This document shows, one piece after another, positions 39,413-44,492 of a stretch of 64,000 bases of DNA; positions within the stretch are counted from its first letter, which is position 1; each line of letters starts with the position of its first letter. Below the pieces are notes generated by a model. It saw only the letters and a list, made by a program, of their open reading frames with translations. It was not told the DNA's origin and searched no databases. A program made the translations under genes and the position numbers. This stretch comes from Coriobacteriaceae bacterium EMTCatB1 (GTDB lineage Bacteria > Actinomycetota > Coriobacteriia > Anaerosomatales > Anaerosomataceae), in NCBI GenBank assembly GCA_001950395.1, contig BDLO01000001.1:533979-597978 (forward strand). The letters are read 5' to 3'.

Positions 39413-39441
39413 TTGTATATCGAACATGTGTTCGATATACT
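39413..39441 (+). promoter_or_regulatory. SOS promoter with LexA box between -35 and -10
   Basis: TTGTAT (39413-39418), 17-base spacer, TATACT (39436-39441). The spacer contains CGAACATGTGTTCG (39421-39434), an exact CGAAC-N4-GTTCG box of the Gram-positive/actinobacterial LexA type. The dyad extends to 39416-39439. LexA bound there would block polymerase directly. Confidence 0.88.
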
Positions 39442-39509
39442 GGCGTTGCCGGACGCAGACCCCTCATGGCTCCTTCTGCGTCCGGCGCATCATCCCAGGG
39501 AGGCGTGCT

Positions 39510-39926
39510 GTGGGACGGCATCGTGCGATCAAGCAGTACCGGCCAGCCGACCGCGCCGGGCAGCCGCTCGACCTCTTCACCGGGCGCGCGACGAGGACTC
39601 CGGTCATCCTCGAGCTCTTGAGAAGCCCGTGGATCGTCCGGGGCTCGCAGCTTGTGAGCGGCCCGCTCGGGTCCGGGAAGCGTCGCGAAGAGCCCATCGA
39701 GGTGGTCTGGGACGGCTCGAAGCGCGCACCGGCCGCATTCGAATGGAACGGCACGCGCTACCGCGTCGACGCGCTCGTGCAGACGTGGTCCGTGGAGCGG
39801 GCGTGGTGGGACCCGCGTGCGCGCATGAGCAGGCGCTGCTTCCGCGTCTTGGCGCGAGGCGGCCTGTACGACCTCGCCTTCGACCGCCACGAGGGCCGCT
39901 GGCTGCTCGTGGGGGTCGTCGACTGA
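39510..39926 (+). CDS. DUF6504-like protein with a beta-clamp-binding-like motif
   Basis: 138 residues. The C-terminal part matches DUF6504 as I remember it: a REEPIEVVWDG opening, PAAFEWNGTRYRVDALVQTW, WW, then RRCFRVLARGGLYDLAFD and GRWLLVGVVD. Such proteins neighbour DnaE2 and Y-family polymerase genes in actinobacteria. Near the N-terminus, residues 18-23 read QPLDLF, close to the QL(S/D)LF sliding-clamp motif. GTG 39510 has GGAGG six bases upstream. It is the first gene behind the LexA-controlled promoter and 11 bases before dnaE2. A clamp-adaptor role is inferred. Confidence 0.75.
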   Translation: MGRHRAIKQYRPADRAGQPLDLFTGRATRTPVILELLRSPWIVRGSQLVSGPLGSGKRREEPIEVVWDGSKRAPAAFEWNGTRYRVDALVQTWSVERAWWDPRARMSRRCFRVLARGGLYDLAFDRHEGRWLLVGVVD

Positions 39927-39936
39927 ACGCACGGCG

Positions 39937-42900
39937 ATGTCCGGCTTCGTACACCTCCACGTCCACTCGAGCTTCAGCTTCATGGACGGCGCCGCCGACG
40001 TCGGCGCGCTCGTCGAGAGGGCAGCAGCGTACGGCATGCCTGCGCTCGCGCTCACCGACCACCAAGGTCTCTCCGGCGCTGTCCGTTTCTACCGGGCCGC
40101 CAAGAAGGCCGGCATACGCCCGATCGTGGGCGCCGAGATCGTCGTCGAGCCGGTCGGCTGCGTGGGCGACGAAGGGGATGCGCCGCCCACGGCCCGGCTC
40201 CCGCTTCCACCGCTCGCTGGTTTCGGCAGAGCAGCCGGCCAGGGCTTCCACCTCACGCTCCTCGCGAAGGACCGCACCGGGTACGCGAACCTGTGCGCGC
40301 TCATCACGCGCATGCACCTCGGCAAGACCCAGCGGCCGTCGGTGGCCGGGCTCGAGGACCTCGCACGGTTCTCAGAGGGGCTCATCGGGCTTTCGGGGTG
40401 CCCGTACGGGGAAGCGGGCGCCGCCGTCCTTGCGGGGCAAGCGAGCAGAGCCGAGCGGGCCCTCGCTGCGCTCGCGCGCTGCTTCGCGCCCGGGGACTTC
40501 TACGTGGAGCTCATGAACCTGCTCGTGCCCGAGAGCCCTCGGTACGTAGCGACGCTCGTCGGCATCGCTGAGCGTCTCGGGCTTCCTATCGTCGCCACCA
40601 ACGACGTGCACTACGTCGAGAAGCGAGAGTTCCGGCTTCACGACGTGCTCGCAGCAGCGGGCGCTCGCACCGGGCTTCCCGGTCCTTACGAGCGCCAGAA
40701 CGCCGAGCTCTGGCTGAAGCCTGCGTCCGAGATGCGCCGTCTGTTCGCGGGCGTCCCCGGCGCGTGCGACGCGACGCTTGCGATCGCCGAGCGATGCGAC
40801 CTCGACCTGGGGCTCGGGACGCTGCACTTCCCGAGCGTCGAGGTCCCTCGCGGCGAGACGCCGTATTCGACGCTCGCGAAGGCCGCGTGGGACGGGCTCG
40901 GGAAGCGGTACCGGCCGCTCACCCCAGAGGCGGTCGCCCGGCTGGAACGCGAGCTTGCCGCCATCCAGCAGCTCGGGTTCGCCGAATACTTCTTGGTGGT
41001 GAAAGACATCGTGGACTTCGCGCGCTCGCGCCAGATACGCGCGACGGGCCGCGGGAGCGCGGGCGACAGCATCGTGGCATACGCGCTCGGCATCACGGAC
41101 GCGGACCCGATACAGCACGACCTTCTCTTCGAGCGGTTCTTGAATCCCGCACGCCGGCAGATGCCCGACATCGACGTCGACTTCGACTCGCGCAGGCGCG
41201 ACGAGGTGGTGGCGTACATCTATAAGAGGTTCGGCGAGGACCACGTGGCGATGGTCGCCACGATCCAGACGATGGGCGCTCGCGGCGCTGTGCGCACGGC
41301 GGCTCGGGCGCTCGGATTCCCGCCGCGCGAGATCGACGCGCTCTCGCGGAACCTGCCGTGGACGAGCGCGCGCCGACTGCGCGAGGTGCTCGCTGCCTAT
41401 CCCGAATGCAGGAACCATCCGCTGCACGACCAGGAGCGCTACGGCCTCGTGATCGAGCTCGCAGAGGAGCTCGCGGGCTTCCCCATGCACCTCGGGACCC
41501 ACCTGGGCGGATTCCTCATCACGAAAGAGCCGGTGTGGACGTGGGCGCCGTTGCAGATCGCCGGCAAAGGCGTCGCCGTCGCGCAGTACGACAAAGACGA
41601 CGTCGAAGCGCTCGGCCTCGTGAAGATGGACATCTTGGGGCTTCGCATGCACTCGGCCATCAGCGACGCGGTCGAGCTGGCACGAGCGCGCGTAGGAGAG
41701 GACGCCGTCCCCGAGCCGTTCGACCTCGCACCGGACGACCCCGAGGTCTTCGCGATGATCGCGCGCGCAGACACGGTGGGCGTCTTCCAGCTCGAGTCGA
41801 GCGGGCAGCGCAACCTCGCCACGCGGCTCAAGCCGCGCACCTTCGGCGACATCATCGCGGCGATCTCGCTGTTCCGGCCCGGCCCGCTCGAAGCCGAGAT
41901 GATCACGCCGTTCATCCGCAGACGGCACGGCATCGAGCCCGTCTCGGTCCCGCATCCCGCGATGGCAGAGGTGCTCCGTGACAGCTACGGCGTCATCCTG
42001 TACCAGGAGCAGGTCCTGCGCGTCGCGCACGCAGTCGCCGGCTTCTCGCTTGCAGAAGCCGACCTGCTCAGGCGCGCTATGACCAAGGACCGCTCGCGGG
42101 CAGAGATGGAGGCGATACGGGAGCGGTTCGTCGAGCACGCGGTCGAGCGCGGCGTCGATCGGAGCGCGGCCGAGGAGGCGTTCCGGCAGATCGAAGGGTT
42201 CGCGGCGTACGGGTTCTGCAAAGCGCACGCGGCGTGCTTCGCGGTGATCTCGTACGCGAGCGCGTGGCTCAAGCGGTACTTCCCAGCCGAGTTCGCCTGC
42301 GCGATCCTCAACAACGAGCCGATGGGGTTCTACACGCCGCGAGCGGTGCTGAACGACGCCAGACGCCACGGCATCGAGGTGCTGCCCCCGCACGTGAACC
42401 GCTCAGACGCCGAGCACACCGTCGAAGCGGACGGACGGGCGATCCGGGTCGGCCTCAAAGACGTGTGCGGCATCACGCAACGGACGCTCGCCGCCATCGC
42501 CCGCGAGCGGGCACGTCGGCCGTTCCTCGACCTCGCGGACTTCCTGCGACGGACGGGCGCCGAGACGCCGGAAGCGGAGAGCCTCATCCGCGTCGGAGCG
42601 CTCGACGGCCTCGGGCTCACCGACGCCGGCCGCCCGCCGACCCGAGACGAGATGCTCGCCATGCTGCCGGAGCTCAAGGCCGTGATAGCGCGAGAGGGCG
42701 TTGCGGGCGACGACGTGCTCCTCATCGCGCCAGGCAAGGCGCGGACGCCCGAGTGCCCGCAGCATCCGTCCGGATGGTCGCTTCTGCGCCGCGTGTCTGC
42801 CGAGCTCGAGATCCTGGGGCTTTCGATCAGCTGCCATCCGCTCGAGCTCGCGGACGACGACCTCGACCGTTGCGGCGTGACGCGCGCACGCGAGCTTCAA

Positions 42901-43299
42901 GCGCTCGACGACCGCACGCGCGTGCGGGTCGTGGGCGTCCGCGAGCGGGCGCAGACGCCGCCGACGCGTTCGGGCAAACGGACGTGCTTCCTCACGCTCG
43001 AAGACGCCACCGGGCTGCTCGACGTCGTCGTGTTCGAAGACGTGCTGCAGCGCACGGGCGACGTCATCGTCTCGAACCGCGCCTACCTCGTGGAAGGGAC
43101 GCTGCAGAACAATCCTGAGCGAGGTCTCGTGATCGTGGCGGAGCGCATCGAACCGTACGTCGTGCGAGCGCGCGACGGCGCGCCGGTGCGGCTCAGGCGA
43201 GCCGTGCCGTCAGGACCCCTCGGACCGCAGCGCGGCTTAGCGGGCGCGCCTGAAGACGAGCAGGACCCCGCGTGCTCCGCCTGCGTTCAGGACCCCTGA
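39937..43299 (+). CDS. dnaE2: Error-prone DNA polymerase III alpha subunit (DnaE2/ImuC type)
   Basis: 1120 residues. PHP domain at the start (FVHLHVHSSFSFMDGAA). The polymerase aspartates are about D411 and D413 in PDIDVDFDSRRRDEV, and D565 in VKMDILGL. HLGTHLGGFLIT, PMGFYTPRAVLNDARRHGIEV and VNRSDAEH are DnaE2-like rather than replicative. The C-terminus ends after an OB fold (RTCFLTLEDATGLLDVVVF) with no tau-binding tail, and I see no clear clamp motif. Placed behind the SOS promoter with the DUF6504 gene, it should perform damage-induced translesion synthesis. ATG 39937 has no strong ribosome-binding site. Its end overlaps dinB by 13 bases. Confidence 0.9.
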   Translation: MSGFVHLHVHSSFSFMDGAADVGALVERAAAYGMPALALTDHQGLSGAVRFYRAAKKAGIRPIVGAEIVVEPVGCVGDEGDAPPTARLPLPPLAGFGRAAGQGFHLTLLAKDRTGYANLCALITRMHLGKTQRPSVAGLEDLARFSEGLIGLSGCPYGEAGAAVLAGQASRAERALAALARCFAPGDFYVELMNLLVPESPRYVATLVGIAERLGLPIVATNDVHYVEKREFRLHDVLAAAGARTGLPGPYERQNAELWLKPASEMRRLFAGVPGACDATLAIAERCDLDLGLGTLHFPSVEVPRGETPYSTLAKAAWDGLGKRYRPLTPEAVARLERELAAIQQLGFAEYFLVVKDIVDFARSRQIRATGRGSAGDSIVAYALGITDADPIQHDLLFERFLNPARRQMPDIDVDFDSRRRDEVVAYIYKRFGEDHVAMVATIQTMGARGAVRTAARALGFPPREIDALSRNLPWTSARRLREVLAAYPECRNHPLHDQERYGLVIELAEELAGFPMHLGTHLGGFLITKEPVWTWAPLQIAGKGVAVAQYDKDDVEALGLVKMDILGLRMHSAISDAVELARARVGEDAVPEPFDLAPDDPEVFAMIARADTVGVFQLESSGQRNLATRLKPRTFGDIIAAISLFRPGPLEAEMITPFIRRRHGIEPVSVPHPAMAEVLRDSYGVILYQEQVLRVAHAVAGFSLAEADLLRRAMTKDRSRAEMEAIRERFVEHAVERGVDRSAAEEAFRQIEGFAAYGFCKAHAACFAVISYASAWLKRYFPAEFACAILNNEPMGFYTPRAVLNDARRHGIEVLPPHVNRSDAEHTVEADGRAIRVGLKDVCGITQRTLAAIARERARRPFLDLADFLRRTGAETPEAESLIRVGALDGLGLTDAGRPPTRDEMLAMLPELKAVIAREGVAGDDVLLIAPGKARTPECPQHPSGWSLLRRVSAELEILGLSISCHPLELADDDLDRCGVTRARELQALDDRTRVRVVGVRERAQTPPTRSGKRTCFLTLEDATGLLDVVVFEDVLQRTGDVIVSNRAYLVEGTLQNNPERGLVIVAERIEPYVVRARDGAPVRLRRAVPSGPLGPQRGLAGAPEDEQDPACSACVQDP

Positions 43300-44492
43300 C
43301 GCGGCTCGTCATCGCCGCGCAGTCCGCGACGCACGGCGTTCGGGCCGAACCGCCTCCTGATCTCGTCCAGATTCTTCGCAAGAGCGGTCGAGCGCTCCCG
43401 CTCGGCGGACGCCTCCGTCTCGCCGAACAGCTCCAGCTGCTCCATCGGCTCGGTGAGCGCAGAAACGCCGAAGCCGAGCAACCGGACGCGCGTGCCGGGC
43501 GGGGCGAGGGACGCCAACAGCTCCCGCGCCGCCGGAAGCATCTCCTGCTCGAGGTAGGCAGGCTGCGAAAGCGTGGCCTGGGCGCTTCTGGTCGTCATGT
43601 CCGGATACCGCACCTTCACGGCCAGGGTGCGCCCCGCCAAACGGCGCGCGCGAAGCCGCGACGCCACCTTCTCGACCAGCCGTTCGAGACGCATCGCGGC
43701 CTCGTCGGGCGTGAGGTCGACCGGGAACGTGACCTCGTTCGAGAGGCTCTTCACCGGCCGCTCCGTCGCTACAGGCCGCGGATCGACCCCGCGTGCCCGA
43801 AGCACCGCCACGGGTCCGAACGATCCCAATGCCGCTACCGCGCGCTCCTCGTCCAGCGTGGCGAGCTCGCCGAGCGTCTTGACGCCGAAGCGAGCCAGCC
43901 GCTTCTGCGCAGCCGGGCCGATGCCAGGCAGCACGCTCACGGCAAGCGGCGCCAAGAACGCGGACTCCTCGCCTGGGCGCACGACAACTAGCCCGCCCGG
44001 CTTCTCCCGATCGGACGCGATCTTCGCGACCGTCTTCGAGGTGGCGACGCCGATCGAGCACGAGAGCCCCATGGCGCGCACCTTCTCCGCGATCGATCGA
44101 GCCACCTGCACAGGGTCTTCGCCGCTCTGGCCGGGCGTCACATCCAGGTACGCCTCGTCGATCGAGGCGACTTCCACGAGCGGCGTGACGTCGAAGAAGA
44201 TCTCTCTCACGCGTTGGGCGACTTCTCGGTAGCGGTCGAACCTCGGCCGCACCCACACCGCATCCGGGCACAGGCGGGCTGCCGCCGACGAGGCCATCGC
44301 CGAACGGACCCCGTGCGTGCGCGCTTCGTAGGATGCCGTCGCCACGACGCCGCGCGACTTCGGATCGCCGCCTACGACTACCGGCTTTCCGCGCAGCTCG
44401 GGCCTGTCCAGCTGCTCGACCGCGGCGAAGAACGCGTCCATGTCCACGTGGAGGATCGCCCGCGCCGCCCACGGTGTCGGTTCAACGCTCAT
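43287..44492 (-). CDS. dinB: DNA polymerase IV (Y family)
   Basis: 401 residues. Catalytic acids are intact: D17 and D19 in HVDMDAFFAAVEQ, D112 and E113 in ASIDEAYLDVT, so this is an active polymerase, unlike ImuB. The helix-hairpin-helix and little-finger regions follow (LPGIGPAAQKRLARFGVKTLGEL). Near the C-terminus, QLELF (352-356) is a typical clamp-binding motif. It converges on dnaE2 with a 13-base overlap of the 3' ends and diverges from nfo across 50 bases. I see no LexA box in that 50-base region. Confidence 0.94.
   Translation of the reverse strand: MSVEPTPWAARAILHVDMDAFFAAVEQLDRPELRGKPVVVGGDPKSRGVVATASYEARTHGVRSAMASSAAARLCPDAVWVRPRFDRYREVAQRVREIFFDVTPLVEVASIDEAYLDVTPGQSGEDPVQVARSIAEKVRAMGLSCSIGVATSKTVAKIASDREKPGGLVVVRPGEESAFLAPLAVSVLPGIGPAAQKRLARFGVKTLGELATLDEERAVAALGSFGPVAVLRARGVDPRPVATERPVKSLSNEVTFPVDLTPDEAAMRLERLVEKVASRLRARRLAGRTLAVKVRYPDMTTRSAQATLSQPAYLEQEMLPAARELLASLAPPGTRVRLLGFGVSALTEPMEQLELFGETEASAERERSTALAKNLDEIRRRFGPNAVRRGLRGDDEPRQGS

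Follow-up and report, generated by a model that had tools for sequence, protein, structure and literature searches.

How does the error-prone polymerase DnaE2 reach the beta clamp in an organism in whose genome neither imuB nor imuA is found? The question is raised by a pair of genes at positions 39413 to 43299 of a 64,000-nucleotide stretch of DNA (the window) from Coriobacteriaceae bacterium EMTCatB1, a member of the actinobacterial order Anaerosomatales, hereafter this order (assembly GCA_001950395.1, contig BDLO01000001.1, positions 533,979 to 597,978). The window lies within a complete genome of 1.84 Mb, and its nearest named relatives are metagenome-assembled genomes labelled Coriobacteriia, Anaerosomatales or Actinobacteria. 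We consider it fairly probable that the pair encodes a LexA-controlled two-protein mutasome, in which a catalytic DnaE2 is joined by a stand-alone ImuB-C (DUF6504) protein with a predicted clamp-binding arm. Such a system addresses two questions, namely what ImuB-C does and which parts DnaE2 minimally needs at a stalled fork. Its elements are:

39413..39441, forward strand: sigma-70-like promoter, TTGTAT-17-TATACT, read from the sequence, with the same layout in most loci of this order
39421..39434, no strand assigned: LexA box CGAACATGTGTTCG, lying between the -35 and -10 elements, read from the sequence, conserved across this order, with the same pattern 5' of lexA, recA and a uvrD-like gene
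39510..39926, forward strand: stand-alone ImuB-C (DUF6504) protein with N-terminal arm, 138 residues, GTG start, identified by Pfam, by the domain that it shares with the C-terminus of ImuB and by hhalign
39561..39578, forward strand: clamp-binding-like motif QPLDLF, residues 18-23, from column statistics over 56 sequences, spaced as QAMSLF of Escherichia coli delta
39600..39641, forward strand: conserved segment PVILELLRSPWIVR, residues 31-44, between the motif and the beta domain, from column conservation, with an AlphaFold2 helix at residues 30-38
39690..39920, forward strand: beta domain of ImuB-C, residues 61-137, the highest-confidence part of the AlphaFold2 model
39937..43299, forward strand: dnaE2, error-prone C-family polymerase of 1120 residues, identified by Pfam and NCBIfam, its catalytic aspartates and the DnaE2 tree
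42709..42729, forward strand: decayed clamp site of DnaE2 (DDVLLIA, with the Gln lost), recognised by comparison with related DnaE2s

The identity of the small protein is the first point to settle. Pfam family PF20114 (DUF6504) matches it with a score of 42.7 bits, the cut-off being 24.2, which places it in the ImuB-C/DUF6504 family. The same model matches the C-terminus of alphaproteobacterial ImuB, between residues 399 and 504, scoring above the cut-off for Mesorhizobium and Novosphingobium and just below it for Paracoccus and Roseomonas, and two such ImuBs carry the NCBI annotation 'DUF6504 family protein'. When an alignment of 52 small proteins was compared with one of eight ImuBs by hhalign, residues 63-137 were matched to the C-terminal part of ImuB (E 4.7e-5, probability 68%). 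As judged from these profile comparisons, the small protein is the C-terminal domain of ImuB in the form of a stand-alone protein. The domain was named ImuB-C by Aravind et al. (2013; PMC3765255), who described stand-alone copies beside DnaE2, some accompanied by an inactive DinB and some not; we found no published biochemical function for stand-alone ImuB-C, and no credible fold match for the domain in the PDB. Among plasmids the window protein had no match, and one Nonomuraea match was to a protein of the short class described below. The original prediction, made from the letters of the window alone, had described the first gene behind the box as encoding a 138-residue DUF6504-like protein with QPLDLF at residues 18-23, and this description holds. 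It had gone on to cast the protein as a clamp adaptor replacing ImuB and ImuA'. The adaptor part is supported by comparison, although the protein is not an unrelated stand-in but ImuB's own C-terminal domain; nothing indicates that it replaces ImuA', and no RecA-NT motif is evident in it by inspection.

The arm in front of the beta domain is where a clamp contact might lie. Across 56 sequences the columns of the motif hold Gly17 in 54, Gln18 in 35, Leu20 in 39, Asp or Glu at position 21 in 53, and both Leu22 and Phe or Leu at position 23 in all 56. Mean entropy over the six-residue window is 1.08 bits as against about 1.8-2.2 on either side, the flanking linker being far more variable. The conservation that the original prediction had asked of QPLDLF is therefore found in part, in that the core of clamp motifs of the QLxLF or QxxSLF kind (Leu, Phe or Leu, and the preceding Asp or Glu) is kept across this order, and the Gln only in the fraction just given. 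The spacing Q-x-x-[SD]-L-F differs by one residue from the QLDLF form seen in DinB and equals that of 69-QAMSLF-74 in E. coli delta, which binds the pocket of the beta clamp (PMC2705854). Burial of the motif in a predicted fold, which had been raised as an objection to the adaptor idea, is not borne out: in the AlphaFold2 model the motif lies in a low-confidence, unstructured coil between short helices at residues 3-9 and 30-38. We found no earlier report of an ImuB-C arm with a clamp-like motif, the main text of a 2026 study in Nucleic Acids Research (PMC12926913) being silent on it.

The absence of ImuB, initially noted within the window, was upheld at genome scale, a search of the complete genome finding no imuB or imuA. 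The genome has one Y-family polymerase (PolY) gene, dinB, and as this single PolY keeps the SIDEAY catalytic motif there is no inactive Y-family protein of the ImuB kind. One model for ImuA/ImuA' gave no hit above its family cut-off, the matches being recA and one weak hit below the cut-off; the hit at 671183 was discarded as recA itself. Two Y-family genes were found in none of the 69 genomes of this order. The DUF6504 protein is present in 58 of the 69, and in nearly all loci dnaE2 starts 1-32 nt after its gene, the gap in the window being 10 nt, so that the arrangement is that of an operon with a stand-alone ImuB-C next to dnaE2 in a genome with no imuA or imuB, as in the DnaE2-[ImuB-C] module. 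The genome comparison also shows joint loss, both proteins being missing in seven genomes. Four more have dnaE2 and no DUF6504 hit; in all of these dnaE2 is fragmented or lies at the end of a contig, and one of them (G421) shows the tail of the DUF6504 protein as far as the contig runs.

DnaE2 itself agrees with the initial description of a polymerase with intact active-site aspartates and no clamp motif at the canonical site. The catalytic residues D411, D413 and D565 are intact, and where the genome's own DnaE1 has QVSMF, DnaE2 is without a clamp motif. The genome has two DnaE genes; DnaE2 is 35-38% identical to the DnaE1-type hits of sister genomes and the tree separates them, indicating that it is distinct from DnaE1, and its NCBIfam scores lie below both specific cut-offs. 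Hits to 'QISLF' in 12 DnaE2s were rejected as clamp sites, since by eye we take them for the catalytic-core sequence 'ISLFRPGP'.

How the motif came to be on the small protein is suggested by the stand-alone DUF6504 proteins and their neighbourhoods, which we read at about 60 additional loci within the phylum. Most such proteins outside this order are short, begin at about MTKRYDEPVEV and lack an arm. Among the loci read, arms with an LF motif were seen only in this order, in Rubrobacterales (EEPLF-type; loci L096, L097, L218, L226 and L228) and in one further lineage, represented by locus L202, where the motif is DPVLF and the locus has a LexA box of its own, and a segment equivalent to PVILELLRSPWIVR is present in Rubrobacterales and L202 as well. 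The arm-bearing loci with a full-length DnaE2 form one clade in the DnaE2 tree (Shimodaira-Hasegawa approximate likelihood ratio test 98, quick tree). Near the site where DnaE1 has QVSMF we sought the hexapeptide pattern Q-x-x-[LMFI]-x-[LIVFM]. It is present in 25 of 26 DnaE2s of the short class (QLALDL, QLTLTI, QATLPL and others) and in none of the 47 from this order, which read DDVLLIAP and similar; Rubrobacterales DnaE2s have QEELPL, QAELPL or the weaker QEEIPP, so that motifs stand on both DnaE2 and ImuB-C. The simplest reading of this reciprocal pattern is that the arm was gained in the common ancestor and that the polymerase motif was later lost in this order. Because the DnaE2 of other Actinobacteria keeps a clamp-like motif of its own, the comparison suggests that the motif was relocated from DnaE2, rather than that an ImuB was stripped down. 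A fuller version of this history, which we regard as evenly balanced between true and false, is that the clamp motif moved from the polymerase to its partner within a single DnaE2 clade, which comprises this order, Rubrobacterales as an intermediate bearing both motifs, and one further actinobacterial lineage, and that DnaE2 and the 138-residue ImuB-C with its arm then form the smallest DnaE2 mutasome that is complete, without any need for ImuA or a Y-family protein.

The control region supports regulation by LexA. Reading of the sequence confirmed that an exact box lies inside the 17-base spacer of a TTGTAT/TATACT promoter (-35 at 39413-39418, -10 at 39436-39441), its one occurrence in the window. 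An exact box precedes the homologous gene in nearly all non-truncated loci of this order, mostly within the spacer of a similar promoter. In the complete genome there are eight exact boxes: two at lexA, one at recA, two at the gene of a uvrD-like helicase, one at this operon, one at an M23-peptidase gene and one inside rnpA. A reversed control pattern also occurs eight times, and the genome-wide count was dropped as evidence; we take the boxes to be LexA boxes because of their places, at lexA, recA, the uvrD-like gene and this operon, and their conservation. The operon thus has a box that overlaps its promoter and is common to lexA and recA, and it is likely to be induced by DNA damage. As a separate observation, the box at the M23-peptidase gene lies 5' of it (L136 3270).

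According to the model that we favour, DNA damage would lead to cleavage of LexA and expression of the operon. The beta domain of ImuB-C would then bind DnaE2, probably at the PHP domain as modelled for Mycobacterium tuberculosis ImuB, and the flexible [Q]xLDLF arm would reach into the beta clamp's hydrophobic pocket and bring DnaE2 to the stalled primer. The tether would have been handed over in the course of evolution, related DnaE2s using their own hexapeptide, the early branch Rubrobacterales having both and this order relying on ImuB-C. Contact between ImuB-C and DnaE2 is inferred from published work, the main text of the 2026 study describing complex models that place ImuB-C on the PHP domain of DnaE2 (PMC12926913), and in mycobacteria the clamp motif of ImuB, 352-QLPLWG-357, is essential (PMC10421592). 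On this model the arm would bind DnaN, taking DnaE2 with it, and expression of the operon would be mutagenic. A clamp-adaptor role is the best reading of the small protein because imuB and imuA are lacking, the core of the motif is kept, its segment is predicted with low confidence to be unstructured and the hexapeptide of DnaE2 has been lost.

The main contender is a three-part mutasome, in which ImuB-C would bridge DnaE2 and the DinB encoded next door, and DinB would provide the contacts with the clamp and RecA. The gene in question, which the original prediction had not mentioned, is:

43287..44492, reverse strand: dinB (Pol IV), convergent and outside the operon, with a QLELF clamp motif and a RecA-NT-like tail, read from the sequence; the only Y-family gene in the genome

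Such an assembly has a precedent in the published DnaE2-[ImuB-C]-PolY-RecA type, and of the 23 assessable short-class loci 19 have dnaE2 directly followed by a PolY on the same strand, most of the PolYs that are complete having clamp-like and RecA-NT-like tails. The DinBs of this order likewise combine a clamp motif of the QLDLF type with a RecA-NT-like tail (LDEIRRRFGPNAVRRG). However, no PolY lies in the operon itself: a same-strand PolY after dnaE2 is found in none of the 46 loci of the arm class (41 convergent, five with none), and of the 43 assessable loci of this order 41 have dinB convergent with dnaE2 and none has it on the same strand. The sequence upstream of dinB in loci of this order yielded no LexA box. 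Moreover, five genomes without DUF6504 and DnaE2 retain a Y-family gene, which indicates that this gene is independent of the module, and a conserved motif on ImuB-C would be left without an evident job if DinB were the tether. We therefore regard the three-part assembly as unlikely. Somewhat more doubtful still is the idea that the arm is a DnaE2-docking peptide or a folding element of ImuB-C, its LF resemblance to clamp motifs having arisen by convergence. This would account for the position of the motif between two conserved segments, for the co-occurrence of the arm with the DnaE2 clade and for the variability of the Gln, which is the most characteristic residue in clamp motifs; yet D/E-L-F with an upstream Gln fits known beta-binding peptides, the DnaE2 of this order has no clamp-like hexapeptide of its own and the arm is predicted to lack stable structure. 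Very improbable, in our estimation, is that ImuB-C acts as a sensor of damaged DNA that recruits DnaE2 without tethering it, as hypothesised by Aravind et al. (2013; PMC3765255). Stand-alone ImuB-C also occurs beside a PolY with no DnaE2 in the stretch, in keeping with that hypothesis, but it leaves the conserved arm unexplained, and the models described in the main text of the 2026 study put ImuB-C on the PHP domain (PMC12926913).

It should be noted that several observations weigh against the two-protein mutasome with a clamp-binding arm. The Gln of the motif is replaced in 21 of 56 sequences, three genomes having RADDLF, and the AlphaFold2 confidence of the arm is low (predicted local distance difference test about 55). 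The delta subunit of this genome, considered as a local example of this spacing, was dropped because QxxSLF is not evident in it, which leaves no second local example. As the classes are clades, the reciprocal motif pattern amounts to one evolutionary contrast rather than many. The arm could dock on DnaE2 itself, and a dinB with QLDLF- and RecA-NT-like motifs adjoins dnaE2 in nearly all assessable loci of this order. The proposal nevertheless makes a clear prediction, with the arm going to the clamp and the beta domain to DnaE2, and natural controls are provided by relatives in which DnaE2, ImuB-C alone or both proteins carry the motif. If it is true, a clamp tether can be transferred from a polymerase to its partner, and the pair would offer a simple system for reconstituting DnaE2 mutagenesis.

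Between the promoter and the first gene lies one further element:

39448..39486, forward strand: 5' leader hairpin of 12 bp (arms 39448-39459 and 39475-39486), fold -31.8 kcal/mol, with pairing in 16 relatives

The hairpin starts just 3' of the -10 element, and in the 16 relatives 192 of 192 cells are paired, four pairs having changed on both sides. An Rfam search of the operon gave no match for it, the sole hit being at chance level. It gives this SOS operon a structured leader. Several more distant loci have other inverted repeats at the same place.

A few genomes depart from the usual layout. In G452, G453 and G454 the two genes are set apart by additional DNA, and a separate LexA box is present for each of them; in G454 (L146 4240-8100, in the orientation of the DUF6504 gene) the insert is a toxin-antitoxin-like block in which, by eye, RES-domain-like, antitoxin-like and nucleotidyltransferase-like genes can be made out. 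In G461 (L191 4305-5432) a gene that by eye is YhcG/DUF1016-like lies between the LexA box and the DUF6504 gene, leaving the box ~1.25 kb upstream; the inserted gene begins MGRNSAIK, the first residues of the DUF6504 protein, whose motif is here degenerate (HQLGLL). Elsewhere in the phylum, eight loci (L201, L207, L208, L209, L213, L214, L219 and L220) are of the PolY-[ImuB-C] type, in which the gene of a short stand-alone ImuB-C is followed on its own strand by that of a PolY and the stretch contains no dnaE2. Within DnaE2, all nine aligned residues of the PHP metal site (HHDHEHCDH) match those of the genome's own DnaE1 in the window protein and in 18 others of this order, and 28 have a change of D to N at one metal site. 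An intact site is unusual in an error-prone polymerase, as the PHP domains of DnaE2 are mostly inactivated according to the main text of the 2026 study (PMC12926913).

A stand-alone ImuB-C beside DnaE2 has been a known arrangement since 2013, and what appears to be new here is the clamp-like arm. Among the closest published systems is the DnaE2-[ImuB-C] module, which the main text of the 2026 study reports solely from Actinobacteria, as in Arthrobacter alpinus (PMC12926913), and in which DnaE2 is likewise linked only to a stand-alone ImuB-C, with no ImuA or ImuB; it differs in that the short ImuB-Cs that we read elsewhere in the phylum are armless and their DnaE2 keeps Q..L.L. With the DnaE2-[ImuB-C]-PolY-RecA module of Tessaracoccus lapidicaptus our locus shares a stand-alone ImuB-C, DnaE2 and a nearby active PolY with a RecA-NT-like tail, but dinB is here convergent and without a LexA box, and a Y-family gene persists where DnaE2 and ImuB-C are gone. 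In Deinococcus a stand-alone ImuB-C also lies in an SOS-controlled operon with dnaE2, and imuA is absent; its operon, however, includes an inactive PolY (ImuY), and its ImuB-C has 80 residues. The likeness to the clamp loader subunit delta of E. coli, an unrelated protein, is limited to the short motif and its spacing. Finally, the ImuA-ImuB-DnaE2 systems of Mycobacterium, Caulobacter and Pseudomonas resemble the operon described here in having an SOS-controlled DnaE2, an ImuB-C domain and a clamp motif N-terminal to that domain in one polypeptide, whereas here there is no ImuA, and the small protein has no Y-family core and shows no evident RecA-NT motif.

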